The notes beneath the pieces are model-generated. The model had not been told where the DNA came from. It saw only the letters and a list, made by a program, of their open reading frames with translations, and searched no databases. This document shows positions 3,501 through 16,225 of a stretch of 64,000 bases of DNA, piece by piece. The first letter of the stretch is position 1. Each line of letters begins with the position of its first letter. Position numbers and translations under genes: made by a program. The stretch is from contig NZ_CP022282.1 of assembly GCF_002216065.1 (NCBI RefSeq), positions 1,488,001 to 1,552,000 on the forward strand, written 5' to 3'. Origin of the DNA: Chryseobacterium sp. T16E-39. Lineage in GTDB: Bacteria; Bacteroidota; Bacteroidia; Flavobacteriales; Weeksellaceae.

Positions 3501-5129
3501 TTAGAAGATATAATCTGTACTTAAGAAATTAGAATCATGTTCTCTGACAATGGTATTTAAAAGCTCTTTATTGGACTCCGTCAATTTTGCTGCTACCAAA
3601 GATCTTATAGAAAAAGAACGAAGAGCATCAAATACAGAAAGAGTCCCTTCCGCACTGTCTTTTCTTCCGGTAAATGGGAAAACATCCGGACCTCTCTGTG
3701 CCTGACAGTTAATATTCACTCGGCTTACAAGATTAACAAATGAATCAATAAGTTTTGAAACTTCATGTGGATCTTCACTAAAAATACTTACCTGCATTCC
3801 ATGGGAAGCATTTACCTGATAATCGATCGGCTCATCAATACTGTCAAAAGGAACGACAGGTATTACAGGCCCAAATTGTTCTTCATGATACAATTTCATT
3901 TCGCTGGTAACAGGGTAAACTACTGCAGGAAATACGAAAGAGGCATCATTGTATCCTCCGTTCTCATTCAATATCTTAGCTCCATGCGCAATCGCATCAT
4001 CAATACACTCTTTCAGATATGGAGGCTTATTCACTTCAGGAAGCGGGGTTATTTTCACATCCTTTTCCCAGGGAAGTCCCGGCTTCAAAGCAGATACAGC
4101 CTTATTTAATTTTTCTGTGAATTCTGCAGCAACTTCTTTTTGTACAAACAGTAATTTTAATGCTGTGCATCGCTGCCCGTTAAAAGAAAGCGCTCCTAAA
4201 ATACATTCATTGACGGCTACATCAAGATCAGCATTTTTTGTAATGATCGCTGCATTTTTTGCATCAAGACTTAAAATCGCACGTAAACGGTTTACTTTTG
4301 GATGCAGCTTTTTCAATCCATTAGCCACTTTACTGGATCCGATAAATGCCAACACATTTACTTTCCCACTTTCCATAATGGGAGTAATGATTTCAGAACC
4401 TTTTCCATACAGTGTATTTACCGTCCCTTTTGGAAATGCTTCTTTAAATGCATTTAATAATGGATAATGAGCCAAGACCCCATGTTTAGGGAGTTTAAAT
4501 AAAATAGTATTTCCCATAATCAATGCCGGAATCAATGTGGTAAATATCTCATTTAAAGGATAATTAAAAGGTCCCATACTTAAAACAACACCCAACGGAG
4601 CTCTACGAATTTGGGCAATCGTTCCTTCTGCCTGCTGGAAACGTGAGGATTCACGATCAAGATCCTTTAATGCATCAATGGTCTGATTGATATAATCCAC
4701 GGTGCGGTCGAATTCTTTGGTAGAATCAGCAAGCGTTTTTCCAATCTCCCACATCAAAAGTTTGATAACAAGATCACGCTGCTGGATCATTAGATAAACA
4801 AATTTCTGCATACATTTTATGCGTCCCTCTACAGACATTGTCGGCCATTCTCCAAGACCATTATCATAAGCTTGTACACATGCTTCAAGAACTTCCATAG
4901 CATCTTCAGGGCTTATATTGGGAATACTACCCAATAGTTTTCTTTCAAGTCCGTTTTCTGTAGGAATACAAACCGGTGAATAAATATTTGTAACCTCGCC
5001 CTTCCACTCTACCAGTTCACCATTCAGCAAGTAGGTGCGCTGATGAATTTCCTGAACTTTAAATTCTTCAGGGATTTCATTCTCACTTTTAAAGATTCCT
5101 TGAAATGACGAATTATGTACTGAATCCAT
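3501..5129 (-). CDS. gapN: NADP-dependent glyceraldehyde-3-phosphate dehydrogenase-like aldehyde dehydrogenase
   Basis: This 542-residue aldehyde dehydrogenase is closest in style to non-phosphorylating GapN, which oxidises glyceraldehyde 3-phosphate to 3-phosphoglycerate with NADP. Visible landmarks are GPFNYP (oxyanion Asn189), the cofactor-site FIGSSKV, the nucleophile Cys321 in FNGQRCTALK, EEQFGPVIPV and the GapN-like ARGPD/FPF region (here QRGPDVFPF). The family's general-base motif ELGGK is replaced by SLDAK (residues 287-291), so the usual Glu is missing. The protein is longer than typical GapN (about 475-500), mainly at the N-terminus. The gene stands alone between the terminator at 3441 and the divergent thiol peroxidase. 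Substrate assignment is by similarity only. Confidence 0.8.
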   Translation of the reverse strand: MDSVHNSSFQGIFKSENEIPEEFKVQEIHQRTYLLNGELVEWKGEVTNIYSPVCIPTENGLERKLLGSIPNISPEDAMEVLEACVQAYDNGLGEWPTMSVEGRIKCMQKFVYLMIQQRDLVIKLLMWEIGKTLADSTKEFDRTVDYINQTIDALKDLDRESSRFQQAEGTIAQIRRAPLGVVLSMGPFNYPLNEIFTTLIPALIMGNTILFKLPKHGVLAHYPLLNAFKEAFPKGTVNTLYGKGSEIITPIMESGKVNVLAFIGSSKVANGLKKLHPKVNRLRAILSLDAKNAAIITKNADLDVAVNECILGALSFNGQRCTALKLLFVQKEVAAEFTEKLNKAVSALKPGLPWEKDVKITPLPEVNKPPYLKECIDDAIAHGAKILNENGGYNDASFVFPAVVYPVTSEMKLYHEEQFGPVIPVVPFDSIDEPIDYQVNASHGMQVSIFSEDPHEVSKLIDSFVNLVSRVNINCQAQRGPDVFPFTGRKDSAEGTLSVFDALRSFSIRSLVAAKLTESNKELLNTIVREHDSNFLSTDYIF

Positions 5130-5275
5130 ATTTTTTATCTTTTTAATAATTAAGTGTCCACTTTTTATTAGAATAAAGGTAGACGTTAGAATTGATTATA
5201 AAAATAGGCAGTTAATAGATTCGGTCTATTTAAAGACTGTTTGAATTAAAATTAATATTCAATCCAAAAAAAGAA

Positions 5276-5283
5276 TAATTTTG
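5276..5283 (+). promoter_or_regulatory. -7 box candidate for the thiol peroxidase gene
   Basis: TAATTTTG matches TAnnTTTG and lies 16 bases before the ATG at 5300. No TTG is found at the proper -33 distance. Confidence 0.4.
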
Positions 5284-5299
5284 TTAAAAAATAAATTCA

Positions 5300-5872
5300 A
5301 TGTTTTCAAAATTAATTTTCACCACACTATTGTCTTTCTCTGTATCTCTTTTTGCCCAAAATTCAAAAACGGCCAATACAGTTATGATGGGAGGAAAACC
5401 AGTAAGTACTTATTCCAAATTACCGGCTGTCAATAAAGCTGCGCCAAAGTTCACTCTTACAGATGTTGGAATGAAAGATCAGACCTTAGATTCTTACAAA
5501 GGGAAATTTTTGATTCTTAATATTTTTCCAAGTGTAGATACGGGGGTTTGCTCAGCTTCAGTGCGTCACTTCAATGAAGATGCGGCCAACCTTCCCAATA
5601 CGGTTGTTCTTTGTATTTCCAAAGATCTGCCTTTTGCACAAAAAAGATTTTGTGGAGCTGAGGGGATCAAAAATGTGGTAATGCTTTCCGATTTCCGTTC
5701 TGATTTCGGAAAAATGTACGGTGTAGAACTCACAGACTCTGTTATGAAAGGTCTTTTAAGCAGGGCTGTGGTTGTAATTGACCCTTCAGGGAAGATTGTT
5801 TACGAAGAGCAGGTTGCTGACATTTCACATGAACCGAATTATGAAGCAGCAATTAAGGCTGTGAAAAATTAA
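5300..5872 (+). CDS. tpx: Secreted thiol peroxidase (Tpx-type peroxiredoxin)
   Basis: The product is a 190-residue peroxiredoxin of the Tpx class, which reduces hydrogen peroxide and organic hydroperoxides. The peroxidatic Cys is C84 in FPSVDTGVCSASVRHFN and the resolving Cys is C118 in KRFCGAEG, both in the standard Tpx spacing. A further Cys, C105, is seen. Residues 1-19 form a clear signal peptide ending SLFAQ, so the mature enzyme should act in the periplasm. Many Tpx proteins lack a signal, which makes this an envelope-protection version. The reductant that recycles it outside the cytoplasm is not encoded nearby. It is followed by the bacteriocin-like peptide gene. Confidence 0.93.
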   Translation: MFSKLIFTTLLSFSVSLFAQNSKTANTVMMGGKPVSTYSKLPAVNKAAPKFTLTDVGMKDQTLDSYKGKFLILNIFPSVDTGVCSASVRHFNEDAANLPNTVVLCISKDLPFAQKRFCGAEGIKNVVMLSDFRSDFGKMYGVELTDSVMKGLLSRAVVVIDPSGKIVYEEQVADISHEPNYEAAIKAVKN

Positions 5873-5957
5873 GTTTAGTTTAAAAATAATTTGTTCGCTA
5901 ATGCTTTAAATGGAGAATATTCCTATATTTAAAACTTAAACGAATTAATAATTTACT

Positions 5958-6134
5958 ATGAAAAATTTTAAAAAGATCTCAAGAGAACAATTAAAAAATG
6001 TACAAGGAGCAGGTTCTTTACCACAATGTCCGGTTGGATATATCTACAGATGCGAAGCCGTAGGTGTATGTGATGAAATAAGTGGTCAAGATGACTGTGC
6101 ATGTGGATGTGTAGTTAAACCTGTGAGACCATAA
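5958..6134 (+). CDS. Bacteriocin-like leader peptide with Cys-rich core
   Basis: This 58-codon gene is too short for ordinary gene calling but is well delimited: ATG at 5958, TAA at 6132-6134, and a strong terminator 7 bases later. The first 19 residues (MKNFKKISREQLKNVQGAG) match the bacteriocin-type leader common in Chryseobacterium and relatives: a basic start, the LSREQLK-like helix and a double-glycine-type end (GAG). C39-peptidase transporters usually cut such leaders. The remaining 39 residues hold six Cys (24, 32, 38, 47, 49, 51), ending in the cluster CACGC. The core may be a disulfide-rich or modified secreted peptide. No transporter, modification enzyme or immunity gene is recognisable in the window. 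Confidence 0.8.
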   Translation: MKNFKKISREQLKNVQGAGSLPQCPVGYIYRCEAVGVCDEISGQDDCACGCVVKPVRP

Positions 6135-6140
6135 AAATTC

Positions 6141-6165
6141 AAACCCTCTTTCCAGAGGGTTTTTT
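6141..6165 (+). terminator. Terminator of the bacteriocin-like peptide gene
   Basis: AAACCCTCT (6141-6149) pairs with AGAGGGTTT (6154-6162) around a TTCC loop and runs into a six-T tract. It marks the peptide gene as a monocistronic unit. Confidence 0.9.
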
Positions 6166-6249
6166 ATTGTTTATAAATAAGCTATCGATTATGATCAGGA
6201 AAAAGCATTATTTTATCTAAAAATCTATTGACTATATTTTAGTCATCTC

Positions 6250-6687
6250 CTATTCCATAAAACTAGCTGTGGAATAATACAGAAATAGTAAAGCCAAGGC
6301 ATCGTCTACAGAATCATCAAGTTCAATACTAAAGGTAGGATCTTTAAACCACTTCCTATGGGTCTGGATATCTATCAGTAACTTTTTCTGTTCGTAAAGC
6401 TGCATTCCTTTACCGAATTTAAAATGGCAGATCTTCACTTCTTTACCAGTTTTAATGATCCTGTCTTTACCAAAGTCTGTATAGTAAAGTACTTTTCTTC
6501 CATCTGAAAGTTCAATATCATTCCATAAAAAGCCTACATTTTTAATGTCGTAGCGCTTAGAATCACATAAAATAAATTTTTTCCACGAAATTAATTTACT
6601 TGTTTCGACAATTTTTCCAATTTCAGAATTATTTTCTGAAAATAAGGTTAACTGTCTTTTTCCGAATTTTGCTGTATATCTTTTCAA
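6250..6687 (-). CDS. Uncharacterised 145-residue protein
   Basis: I do not recognise this family. The protein has no signal peptide or membrane helix. It alternates short beta-like strands with charged turns (RQLTLFSENNSEIGKIVE, then GFLWNDIELSDGRKVLYYT), which could be a barrel like that of LURP/scramblase-type proteins. It ends in an acidic helix (SIELDDSVDDALALLFLYYS). The coding potential looks real because the frame is clean, and an AT-rich upstream stretch separates it from the decayed gene at 6743. It lies in the small accessory islet between the thiol peroxidase and urocanate hydratase genes. Confidence 0.6.
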   Translation of the reverse strand: MKRYTAKFGKRQLTLFSENNSEIGKIVETSKLISWKKFILCDSKRYDIKNVGFLWNDIELSDGRKVLYYTDFGKDRIIKTGKEVKICHFKFGKGMQLYEQKKLLIDIQTHRKWFKDPTFSIELDDSVDDALALLFLYYSTASFME

Positions 6688-6742
6688 TAATTTAATTTTT
6701 AAATTAAAAACGGTTAAAGCTTCATAAAAAATTTAGTCATCC

Positions 6743-7107
6743 TTAGTGATCTCTTTTTTTACTCTCTATAACAATTACTCCATATTCTCCAGCATTTCCA
6801 TACAACTTTTTCGCTTCCTAATGAAAGCACCCTTACAATTTGTATTTTATCGGGATCATTTTTTTCATTTTATCTTCTGAAATCTTTTTATTATCTAATA
6901 AAATCAAAGGTTTTGTAGATTCAATATGTTCTTTTGTAGATATCCCTAGCCAGTCAGTTTTTCACAATCTACCTCTAATTACTAGCCTATCAATATTTCT
7001 TTTTAATCAACTGTTCCACTATATCTTTTTTCATTTGTATCAAAGAATAACAAACTCTTTATCAGAAAATCCACTAAATTATACCCCCTTTTTTCTGGAA
7101 ACTCCAT
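6743..7107 (-). pseudogene. Decayed TonB-plug-like protein gene
   Basis: Three minus-strand frames in succession spell one recognisable domain. 6955 to about 6860 reads DWLGISTKEHIES, then KPLILLDNKKISEDKMKK. After a frameshift comes DKIQIVRVLSLGSEK, and after another comes EAKKLYGNAGEYGVIVIE ending at a TAA at 6743-6745. Intact Bacteroidota proteins carry the pattern (P)L-I-x-L-D-G-K-x-I ... P-x-x-I-x-x-I-x-V-L-K ... Y-G-x-x-G-x-N-G-V-I-x-I. Upstream, a 34-codon open stretch (7003-7107) with stops on either side is probably more of the same relic. At least two frameshifts and several stops make it non-functional. Boundaries are approximate. Confidence 0.75.
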
Positions 7108-7195
7108 AAAACCACATTTTCCATACGGGTTTCATTTCATTCCAACTTTCACGGCACATCCAATTTTTATTTTTTTCATTATTTTGTATAAAAAT

Positions 7196-7226
7196 AAAAA
7201 AACTTTGCAATAAGCAAAGTTTTTTA
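7196..7226. terminator. Terminator downstream of urocanate hydratase
   Basis: AACTTTGC (7201-7208) pairs with GCAAAGTT (7214-7221) around AATAA, with A-runs and T-runs outside the stem on both strands. It ends the minus-strand hutU transcript about 20 bases after its stop codon. Confidence 0.88.
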
Positions 7227-7245
7227 TTAAATATTTTTTCAAAAA

Positions 7246-9231
7246 TTATAATAAATTATCATCAACCATATTAGGAAGAGTAACTTTTAAATTCGGTTCT
7301 ACTTCCATTGCTCTTTTGATTGCAAAGATGGCACCTTCATTTCTAGCCCAACTCCTTCTTGAAATTCCGTTATTGACATCCCAGAAAAGCATAGATTTCA
7401 ATCTTCTGTCTGCTTCAGCACTTCCGTCTAGTAACATTCCAAAACCTCCGTTGATCACTTCTCCCCATCCAACACCACCGCCATTGTGAATAGACACCCA
7501 GGTTGCCCCACGGAAACTGTCACCAATCACATTATGGATAGCCATATCCGCAGTAAATCTTGAACCGTCATAAATATTTGAAGTTTCTCTGTAAGGAGAA
7601 TCTGTTCCTGATACATCATGGTGATCTCTTCCTAAAACTACCGGACCAATTTCTCCGCTTTTTATCGCTTTATTGAATGCCTCCGCAATTTTCATTCTTC
7701 CCTCTGCATCAGCATAAAGAATTCTTGCCTGAGAACCTACGACAAGTTTGTTCTCCTGCGCTCCTTTGATCCATTGAATATTATCTTTCATTTGCTGCTG
7801 AATCTCTTCAGGAGAGTTCTTCTGAATCTCTTCTAAGATCTGACAAGCAATTTCATCTGTCTTTTGAAGATCTTCCGGTTTTCCACTTGTACAAACCCAA
7901 CGGAAAGGTCCAAATCCATAGTCAAAACACATAGGTCCCATAATATCCTGAACATAGCTCGGAAATTTAAATTCTCTGCCTAAGGTAGGATTATCCGCCA
8001 TGACATCCGCTCCTGCTCTGGATGCCTCTAATAAAAAGGCATTTCCATAATCAAAGAAATAGGTTCCCTTTTCTGTATGTTTATTAATTGCAGCAGCATG
8101 TCTCCTTAAAGTTTCCTGAACTTTCTCTTTAAATAATTCAGGATCTTCAGCCATCATCGTATTCGATTCTTCAAAACTTTGTCCCACAGGATAATATCCT
8201 CCAGCCCATGGATTATGAAGAGAAGTCTGATCAGAACCTATATCGATTCTTAAATCTTCTTCATCAAATTTTTCCCAAACCTCAACAATATTTCCAAGGT
8301 ATGCCAACGAAACCGTTTCTTTATTTTCCTGCGCTTTTTTTACTCTTGTTACCAGTTCGTCTACATTGTCATGGATTTCATTCACCCATTTCTGATCGTG
8401 GCGGATCTTTGTGATCTTAGGGTTTACCTCAGCACAGACGGTAATACACCCTGCAATATTTCCTGCTTTTGGTTGTGCACCACTCATTCCTCCTAACCCA
8501 GAGGTTACAAATAGGCCTCCCTTCGTTTCCTTTTTTATCTTCCTGAAAGCATTAAGAACGGTAATGGTTGTACCATGAACAATCCCCTGTGGCCCGATAT
8601 ACATATAACTTCCCGCAGTCATCTGTCCATACTGAGAAACCCCTAATGCATTGAACTTTTCCCAATCGTCCGGTTTTGAATAATTTGGAATCACCATTCC
8701 ATTGGTTACCACTACTCTAGGTGCATCTTTATGTGAAGGAAATAATCCCATCGGATGCCCTGAGTACATCGTCAGGGTCTGCTCATCTGTCATCTCAGAC
8801 AAATACTTCATCGTTAAAAGGTATTGTGCCCAATTTTGGAAAACAGCTCCGTTTCCGCCATATGTGATGAGTTCGTGTGGATGCTGTGCAACTGCATAAT
8901 CAAGATTATTCTGAATCATCAGCATAATCGATTTAGCCTGTTCAGATTTTCCTGGATAATCAGTAATCGGCCTTGCCTTCATTTCATAATCCGGACGGAA
9001 ACGATACATGTAAATTCTACCATATTTTTCTAATTCTTCTTTAAATTCCGGTAGTAATTCAGCGTGAAATTGGGGATCGAAATATCGTAAAGCATTTTTC
9101 AACGCTAGCTTTTTCTCCTCCTCACCTAAAATTTCTTTACGCTTGGGAGCATGATTAATATTCGTTTCGTATGGTTTTGGTTGTGGCAACTGATTAGGTA
9201 TACCCTGTTGTATCTGTTCTTGAAAAGTCAT
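7246..9231 (-). CDS. hutU: Urocanate hydratase
   Basis: The enzyme converts urocanate to 4-imidazolone-5-propionate, the second step of histidine breakdown, using tightly bound NAD as an electrophile. Family landmarks are YGGNGAVFQNWAQY, the SGHPMGLFPSH stretch, the NAD-loop region GLGGMSGAQPKA, and the active-site region FGPFRWVCTSG with the conserved Cys. Near the C-terminus come DHHDVSGTDSPYRET and GGGVGWGEVINGG. At 661 residues it is the long form found in Bacteroidota rather than the roughly 555-residue Pseudomonas type. No other hut gene lies in the window, so the rest of the pathway must be elsewhere. It has its own promoter and terminator. Confidence 0.97.
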   Translation of the reverse strand: MTFQEQIQQGIPNQLPQPKPYETNINHAPKRKEILGEEEKKLALKNALRYFDPQFHAELLPEFKEELEKYGRIYMYRFRPDYEMKARPITDYPGKSEQAKSIMLMIQNNLDYAVAQHPHELITYGGNGAVFQNWAQYLLTMKYLSEMTDEQTLTMYSGHPMGLFPSHKDAPRVVVTNGMVIPNYSKPDDWEKFNALGVSQYGQMTAGSYMYIGPQGIVHGTTITVLNAFRKIKKETKGGLFVTSGLGGMSGAQPKAGNIAGCITVCAEVNPKITKIRHDQKWVNEIHDNVDELVTRVKKAQENKETVSLAYLGNIVEVWEKFDEEDLRIDIGSDQTSLHNPWAGGYYPVGQSFEESNTMMAEDPELFKEKVQETLRRHAAAINKHTEKGTYFFDYGNAFLLEASRAGADVMADNPTLGREFKFPSYVQDIMGPMCFDYGFGPFRWVCTSGKPEDLQKTDEIACQILEEIQKNSPEEIQQQMKDNIQWIKGAQENKLVVGSQARILYADAEGRMKIAEAFNKAIKSGEIGPVVLGRDHHDVSGTDSPYRETSNIYDGSRFTADMAIHNVIGDSFRGATWVSIHNGGGVGWGEVINGGFGMLLDGSAEADRRLKSMLFWDVNNGISRRSWARNEGAIFAIKRAMEVEPNLKVTLPNMVDDNLL

Positions 9232-15346: not shown

Positions 15347-16225
15347 ATGAAAAAAACAGGATTTCTTCTTCTTTTGATCTCAGCATTTAGCTTTGCTCAA
15401 ACAACGTCACTGGAACAAAAGATCAACTCTATTGTAAATGGCAAAAATGCGACCGTAGGTGTTTCTGTCCTGAGCATTGAAAATGATTTCAATTATAACA
15501 AAAACGGGGAGAAAAAACTTCCGATGCAAAGTGTTTTCAAATTTCACATCTCCTCTGCTGTTTTAGATCTTGTTGATAAGGGAAAACTCTCATTGGATCA
15601 GAAAGTTTTAATTAAAAAATCCGATCTCCTGGATGACACCTGGTCTCCGATGCGGGAAAAGTATCCTGCAGGTAATGTTGAACTCCCTTTAAGTGAAATT
15701 ATCGATTTTACCGTTGCTCAAAGTGACAATAATGGATGTGACATCCTTTTACGATTAATTGGAGGAACATCTACAGTACAGAAATTCATGAATTCAAAAG
15801 GAGTAAAGAATTTTCAGATCAAATTCAATGAAGAAGAAATGCATAAGGGCTGGAATGTGCAATATGAAAATTTCAGCACGACCAATTCTATTGTAGATGT
15901 ATTGAAAAAGTTTTATCAGGGAAAACTACTTTCAAAAAAATCGACTGCCTATCTGATGAAAGTAATGCTTGGAACAAAGACCGGAGCCAATAAGTTGGTT
16001 GAACAACTTCCTAAAAATACGCCAGTCGCACATAAAACAGGTTCTTCAGGCAAAAATAAAGAAGGGCTTACCGGTGCAGAAAATGATATGGGAATTGTGA
16101 CCCTTCCCAATGGAAAACACTATGCAATTGCTGTATTTGTAAGTAATTCCACTGAAACAGAAGCCGTAAACTGTAAAATCATTTCTGATCTTTCAAAGGT
16201 AGTTTGGGATGATTTTAATAAGTAG
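15347..16225 (+). CDS. Class A beta-lactamase, subclass A2
   Basis: This 292-residue enzyme hydrolyses beta-lactams in the periplasm, with a signal peptide ending FSFAQ at residue 18. The serine motif is S62-V-F-K, the SDN loop is S126-D127-N128 and the KTG box is at 230-232 (HKTGSS). The omega-loop reads NEEEMH, which puts a His where TEM has Asn170, as in the PER branch. These traits and the genus-like context point to the chromosomal CGA/CIA group of Chryseobacterium. No LysR/AmpR-type regulator is adjacent. A TAAATTTA box immediately before the ATG suggests an almost leaderless transcript. Spectrum cannot be judged from sequence. Confidence 0.93.
   Translation: MKKTGFLLLLISAFSFAQTTSLEQKINSIVNGKNATVGVSVLSIENDFNYNKNGEKKLPMQSVFKFHISSAVLDLVDKGKLSLDQKVLIKKSDLLDDTWSPMREKYPAGNVELPLSEIIDFTVAQSDNNGCDILLRLIGGTSTVQKFMNSKGVKNFQIKFNEEEMHKGWNVQYENFSTTNSIVDVLKKFYQGKLLSKKSTAYLMKVMLGTKTGANKLVEQLPKNTPVAHKTGSSGKNKEGLTGAENDMGIVTLPNGKHYAIAVFVSNSTETEAVNCKIISDLSKVVWDDFNK

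Follow-up and report, generated by a model that had tools for sequence, protein, structure and literature searches.

How a small peptide of bacteriocin type could be exported and matured where no transport or modification gene lies beside it is the question raised by an open reading frame at 5958-6134 (+) of the window, by which we mean the whole 64,000-nucleotide stretch of Chryseobacterium sp. T16E-39 DNA analysed here. The frame opens with ATG and encodes 58 residues with six Cys (residues 24, 32, 38, 47, 49 and 51; spacing Cx7Cx5Cx8CxCxC), the last three of which form the motif CACGC; this gene structure had been read correctly in the preliminary description. We put at roughly two in three the probability that a single export and oxidation hub elsewhere in the genome acts in trans on many dispersed disulfide-rich peptides, including this one; the seemingly orphan peptide thus probably has its maturation machinery after all.

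Leader, core and neighbourhood of the six-cysteine precursor

We searched the 58-residue precursor with leader models. The NCBIfam model NF047798 (leader_Chryseo) scored 40.7 bits over all 18 leader positions, where its cut-off is 23.5 bits; a search with leader profiles was a check proposed in the preliminary description. The same model exceeded its cut-off in none of 14 control genomes. The matched segment, residues 1-18 (5958-6011, +), ends in Gly17-Ala18 and carries Val15, Leu12 and Ile7 at positions -4, -7 and -12, in agreement with the pattern of double-glycine C39 substrates (GG, GA or GS at -2/-1, hydrophobic residues at -4, -7 and -12). As described in the available part of PMC6363468, the crystal structure of a leader-bound C39 protease shows these three hydrophobic positions being read, and GA is among the sites accepted for cleavage. 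In the other 24 aligned rows, positions 17-18 were G-G (13), G-A (10) or G-S (1). Together with the hydrophobic residues at the C39 positions, these residues place the predicted cut after residue 18, and hence predict a core of 40 residues (6012-6131, +) that starts with GSLPQ. The bacteriocin-style leader noted previously was therefore upheld, whereas its proposed end at GAG, with a 39-residue core, gives way to a likely cleavage after Gly17-Ala18. The predicted core is slightly acidic, with three Lys/Arg and five Asp/Glu.

Two further bacteriocin models scored the peptide below their thresholds: the CCPGW family putative bacteriocin NF047792 (23.9 bits, over residues 1-20 only, against 80) and Pfam Bacteriocin_IIc PF10439 (12.3 bits against 27.1). 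In the order of its Cys the core is similar to the first, N-terminal half of EGF (seven EGF entries, E 0.05-0.48, with a weak structure model); with a best E of 0.05, we took this resemblance as probably due to chance. AlphaFold models of the VKOR-thioredoxin protein discussed below and of the peptide were both weak (pLDDT 65.8 and 60.5), which leaves disulfide pairing and fold unsupported by modelling.

Cys modification of another kind is known in the genus. In the DUF692-type ChrA/ChrH system, Cys residues are modified to a macrocycle, and we considered whether the window peptide might be processed likewise. According to the portion of PMC10214503 available, ChrA bears a C-terminal CPACGMG and has ChrH and ChrI encoded beside it; the window peptide lacks CPACGMG, and ChrA is a different peptide. 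We regard a DUF692-type origin as very improbable.

We then evaluated conservation, on which the preliminary description had staked its candidate. A protein search with the window peptide gave a match at E<=0.001 in 143 of the 173 genomes of the genus (its own included), although many of the weaker matches are leader-driven. Six Cys are encoded at each of the 30 loci fetched from this search, the window's own being among them. When 25 of these loci were aligned, five Cys columns proved invariant and the sixth (C47) was conserved in at least 90% of rows, being shifted in one (L082). Ratios of dN/dS were 0.04-0.33 in 18 chosen pairs (29 rows; L079 was left out, its start being unclear). Named relatives belong to Chryseobacterium species and Elizabethkingia (35 loci, of which the six-Cys family makes up only part). 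These results confirm that the window ORF is a real, conserved gene. Directly 3' of its stop codon lies a terminator-like hairpin with a T-run (6141-6162, +), one of four such sites in 5200-7300 where shuffled sequences gave an expectation of 0.8; Rfam returned nothing above gathering score over 5000-7400.

The gene 85 bp upstream, co-oriented with the precursor (5300-5872, +), encodes a thiol peroxidase (tpx; NF001808, 222.7 bits, cut-off 123). A peroxidase does therefore adjoin the peptide, as had been pointed out, yet of 30 fetched tpx loci only 4, the window's own included, had the peptide at a distance of 1.5 kb or less. This linkage is probably incidental, and we dropped a functional tie between peptide and peroxidase. 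In two genomes outside those 30 loci (G062 and G066), a relative was found on the strand of tpx at distances of about 1.6 and 2.4 kb. On the other side, a 145-residue ORF with a TTG start (6250-6687, -) matched nothing in Pfam or NCBIfam at E<=1 and gave no tblastn match at E<=1e-4 at any of 29 other loci (three of them the same tpx locus); it may be strain-specific, or not a gene. Farther along the window, the ORF at 15347-16225 (+) may encode a secreted class A beta-lactamase. No obvious immunity gene lies beside the peptide, and the window holds no C39 gene, just as had been stated.

Exporters and dispersed precursors of the genome

The suggestion that export and maturation genes might be missing was not supported by a search of the genome, which revealed four C39 exporters, all outside the window. 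One of these, at the locus L035 (genome about 3870519-3876189, ~2.4 Mb from the window peptide; exporter 3872147-3874336), is the sole exporter with an adjoining precursor of the leader_Chryseo type, and is accompanied by an HlyD protein and a VKOR-thioredoxin protein. The adjoining precursor has six Cys and scored 16.5-17.7 bits with NF047798, below the 23.5 cut-off. The VKOR-thioredoxin protein (501 residues) is the single match of its kind in the genome; three Cys pairs were invariant in 30 aligned homologs, taken from 120 listed of 388 found, and judging by their motifs we take them for the active-site pairs of the VKOR and thioredoxin domains. We rejected the idea that this protein has a degenerate, N-terminal C39-like domain (hhalign probability 0.1, with a C39 set that included one row, L204, in the wrong frame; model pLDDT below 50 for residues 1-53).

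From these components we propose the following route. The L035 exporter would bind the leader and cut after Gly17-Ala18; the exporter, the HlyD adaptor and a presumed outer-membrane channel would secrete the 40-residue core; and the VKOR-thioredoxin protein would pair the six Cys into three disulfides.

The other three exporters adjoin, respectively, a JmjC_2-like protein, a LanB protein with a pinensin leader, and a radical SAM/SPASM enzyme. The first locus (L036:6962-10733), where the JmjC_2-like protein falls below the Pfam cut-off and a putative precursor carries a VVRQV-type repeat tail, is possibly an unusual RiPP locus. The second (L037:8989-16879) is a lanthipeptide locus with a lantibiotic dehydratase (LanB) and a pinensin-type leader, and at the third (L038:6704-10549) the radical SAM/SPASM protein is joined by a C39 exporter of its own and by a putative GG precursor.

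Since these exporters and enzymes exist in the genome, and since the C39 protease domain can tolerate varied leaders (PMC6363468, in the part available), the window peptide could instead be a substrate of one of them and carry a lanthipeptide, radical SAM or JmjC_2-linked modification. However, a putative precursor with another leader accompanies each of the three, the three 18-kb regions around them contain no leader_Chryseo match at E<=1, and the single VKOR-thioredoxin match of the genome adjoins the L035 exporter; we consider this assignment unlikely. No thioether-forming enzyme linked to the leader_Chryseo type was found, the scan at exporter loci of relatives being one for HlyD, C39 ABC, VKOR and precursors.

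We next surveyed the precursors themselves. NF047798 had 55 matches at E<=1 in the window's genome, 31 of them over the cut-off. After exclusion of one 439-residue frame (E 0.85), the other 54 read as short precursors composed of a leader and a Cys-rich core, and are spread over 30 loci (loci being more than 10 kb apart). They contain four (17 precursors), five (2), six (32) or eight (3) Cys, an even number in 52 of 54. Core clustering at 40% identity merged 47 of the 54 and was uninformative, so we used Cys spacing to define families. Even counts held in 30 of the 32 spacing families, compared with 20 of 30 ORFs of comparable length taken from the same DNA as controls, each with 4-8 Cys, a small control set against paralogs that are not independent. 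Even Cys counts across many unrelated spacings point to disulfide pairing, and this bias, together with the VKOR protein, argues for disulfides rather than thioethers.

These data also bear on whether the peptide is a Cys-rich metal-binding peptide of the cell or periplasm, with CxCxC as ligand. The CACGC motif would suit such a ligand, since Cys 49 and 51 are invariant and Cys 47 is conserved in at least 90% of the 25 rows; the Cys of the peptide are nonetheless conserved along with a cleavable-type leader, and the even-Cys paralogs show many unrelated spacings, which makes metal binding a very unlikely function.

A terminator-like hairpin was present within 60 nt of the stop codon in 30 of the 54 precursors (an uncontrolled count), and a shared promoter motif was not found, TAnnTTTG occurring in 6 of the 54 upstream 60-mers. 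By pattern match, eight of the 54 have a knottin-like Cys order (CC-containing, like inhibitor cystine knots); four of these eight are L014, L016, L018 and L029 (genome 2754882, 86256, 4564986 and 4197614).

Leader and hub in other genomes

We investigated whether leader and hub occur together across the genus. The leader was over cut-off in 160 of 173 genomes, in line with the earlier view that locally orphan precursors are widespread in Chryseobacterium, and a full VKOR-thioredoxin homolog was present in 161, being absent or weak (G030) in 12. Both traits occurred in 159 genomes and neither in 11, with VKOR only in 2 and leader only in 1 (Fisher 1.2e-14, ignoring relatedness). Some ABC match to the hub exporter was found in all 173 genomes; when an ortholog was defined as a best E reported as 0, leader and exporter were both present in 158 genomes and both absent in 9, with exporter only in 4 and leader only in 2 (Fisher 1.2e-10, again ignoring relatedness). 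Outside the genus, across 147 genomes (a number we inferred), leader and VKOR were both present in 12 and both absent in 125, with leader only in 4 and VKOR only in 6 (Fisher 2.1e-10). Leader match counts per genome, within and outside the genus, are lower bounds, part of the candidates having been scored. A ClpX tree of 30 of the 173 genomes, picked so as to include every exception and many genomes with low counts, requires 8 changes in the leader trait; among independent pairs, leader and VKOR changed in the same way 2-3 times and never in opposite ways, which is not significant.

The exceptions differ in kind. In G069 no C39 match accompanies the four leader matches, of which three have the look of Cys-rich precursors; this genome is a true exception to the pairing of leader and exporter, and may reflect a recent exporter loss or another route. 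Its leader precursors L184, L190 and L192 are intact and Cys-rich although no C39 domain was found. G128 is probably not a true exception, because C39 pieces lie in short frames and the assembly is 75% complete. G137 has exporter and VKOR with no leader match, and the one sub-threshold leader match of G089 is a six-Cys precursor.

The composition of the hub was conserved as well. We took 30 loci of the genus with an exporter ortholog (that of the window's genome plus 29 more), with 1.5 kb flanks that contig ends cut short in some cases. HlyD was present at all 30 and VKOR at 24, while 25 had Cys-rich precursors of the leader type, with up to five per locus. We added 14 further stretches; 13 were picked because they matched VKOR, ten in other genera and three in this one. 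The trio of VKOR, exporter and HlyD stood together at 11 of the 13 (8/10 in other genera and 3/3 in this genus). No exporter or HlyD was seen at L252; at L258 the VKOR match was in pieces with no exporter, and at L253 the exporter match was in pieces. No leader-type precursor was seen near the other-genus hubs L254 and L255. The fourteenth stretch, L263, is a leader locus without the hub cluster. Two close copies of the hub exporter occur in each of the genomes G051, G081 and G094.

We further compared the dispersed cores with precursors encoded at hubs. Exporter/VKOR loci of other genomes, 42 in total, yielded 83 precursors in 33 loci, with even Cys counts in 81 of 83; two loci were taken twice (L106/L262 and L109/L260), so that at least four of the 83 are counted twice. 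Core relatives at these loci were found for 12 of the 54 precursors (z >4 against Cys-fixed shuffles, 60 each). One of the 12 is the exporter-linked precursor itself, which leaves eleven orphans with relatives inside clusters of other genomes. Several of the core relatives are close (z 10-20), while others share only a knottin-like frame (z 4-7). The window core had no relative among the precursors at the 42 loci (z -0.5), and its assignment to the hub thus rests on its leader.

This last result, together with the scarcity of the peptide near tpx (no more than 1.5 kb away in just 4 of the 30 fetched loci), would suit a relic, a former cluster member that has lost expression or export. Against this stand the intact frame, the conserved Cys, low dN/dS across divergent species and the terminator-like hairpin 3' of the gene, and we judge a relic to be improbable, if somewhat less so than metal binding. 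Maturation of the window peptide in trans by the L035 hub remains our preferred explanation. The wider proposition, that Chryseobacterium and its kin release dozens of unlinked, unrelated disulfide-rich peptides per genome, knottin-like in some cases, all of them both folded and exported through one C39/HlyD/VKOR hub in trans, with new peptides arising anywhere by carrying the common leader, is one we hold at even balance.

Role of the peptide and relation to known systems

For the role of the secreted peptide, we tentatively favour antagonism among related bacteria, as part of a large hub-served repertoire, yet a role as signal or inhibitor is just as likely. The peptide could be exported and oxidized as proposed and still not be a bacteriocin, serving instead as a secreted signal, a protease inhibitor, or a matrix or stress peptide. 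Purifying selection with no visible diversification in the 18 chosen pairs, the slightly acidic core, the lack of an obvious neighbouring immunity gene, the presence of more than 50 paralogs in this one genome and the knottin-like Cys order of 8/54 all suit such a role. Pulling the other way, bacteroidetocins kill although no immunity gene has been found for them in what is available of PMC6671954, and two of five database relatives of the window peptide carry a bacteriocin or bacteriocin-like label. In addition, according to the accessible part of PMC6256643, a strain of Chryseobacterium indologenes for which a single bacteriocin cluster is predicted antagonizes another bacterium, with a link to these peptides not shown there. 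We regard a non-bacteriocin role as equally likely.

The leader family is already named in NCBIfam: NF047798, a 'bacteriocin-like protein', is alike over 18 positions, covers the leader only, and names no exporter, oxidase or function. Its name and accession appeared in no paper of the open-access literature searched, and neither the hub nor the set of dispersed precursors was seen to be described there (most subscription journals being outside that scope). A survey, in the part available, reports many Chryseobacterium-specific RiPP cluster families (PMC10734526).

The closest analogy is with the bacteroidetocins (class IIf, Coyne et al. 2019, PMC6671954). On the basis of the available portion of that paper, the shared features are a double-glycine leader, a small Cys core, a C39 ABC exporter, a thiol oxidoreductase, no immunity gene found, and a Bacteroidetes host; deletion of the oxidoreductase attenuates bacteroidetocin activity, and no immunity protein was found (PMC6671954). 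Bacteroidetocins are encoded by four genes together, with one basic peptide of four Cys (PMC6671954), whereas in the present case a precursor with six Cys and a slightly acidic core stands apart from its proposed machinery, a single hub appears to serve about 54 precursors, and the exporter comes with an HlyD protein. Class IIf is defined by a C39 protein, a thiol oxidoreductase and a TM protein beside the precursor, and by a leader of 15-16 residues with at least two core Cys; the C39-VKOR-HlyD locus lies ~2.4 Mb away, and the window peptide has an 18-residue leader and six Cys. The VKOR-thioredoxin protein would be the counterpart of the bacteroidetocin thiol oxidoreductase by its proposed role. 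In our best reading, the hub would work like bacteroidetocin biosynthesis, but decentralized.

In Gram-negative bacteria, microcin V-type secretion (CvaAB) also combines a C39 ABC exporter with an HlyD-type adaptor, with one precursor linked in cis; the present system differs in its VKOR oxidase and its many unlinked precursors. Prochlorosin precursor genes are dispersed. Prochlorosins and the lah cluster (LahA1-9/LahT) share with the present set one tolerant C39 protease/exporter or maturation system, conserved leaders and diverse cores (PMC6363468, in the portion available). Those are lanthipeptide systems (PMC6363468), whereas here no linked maturase was found and disulfides are inferred.

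If the proposed scheme is true, the orphan precursors of a large genus are not orphans, and a single deletable locus controls about fifty secreted peptides per genome, which would make peptide function directly testable through deletion of one exporter and one VKOR. It would also constitute a natural bacterial system that exports and oxidizes many small disulfide-rich scaffolds, and a Gram-negative, disulfide-based counterpart of the prochlorosin strategy of one machine for many peptides.
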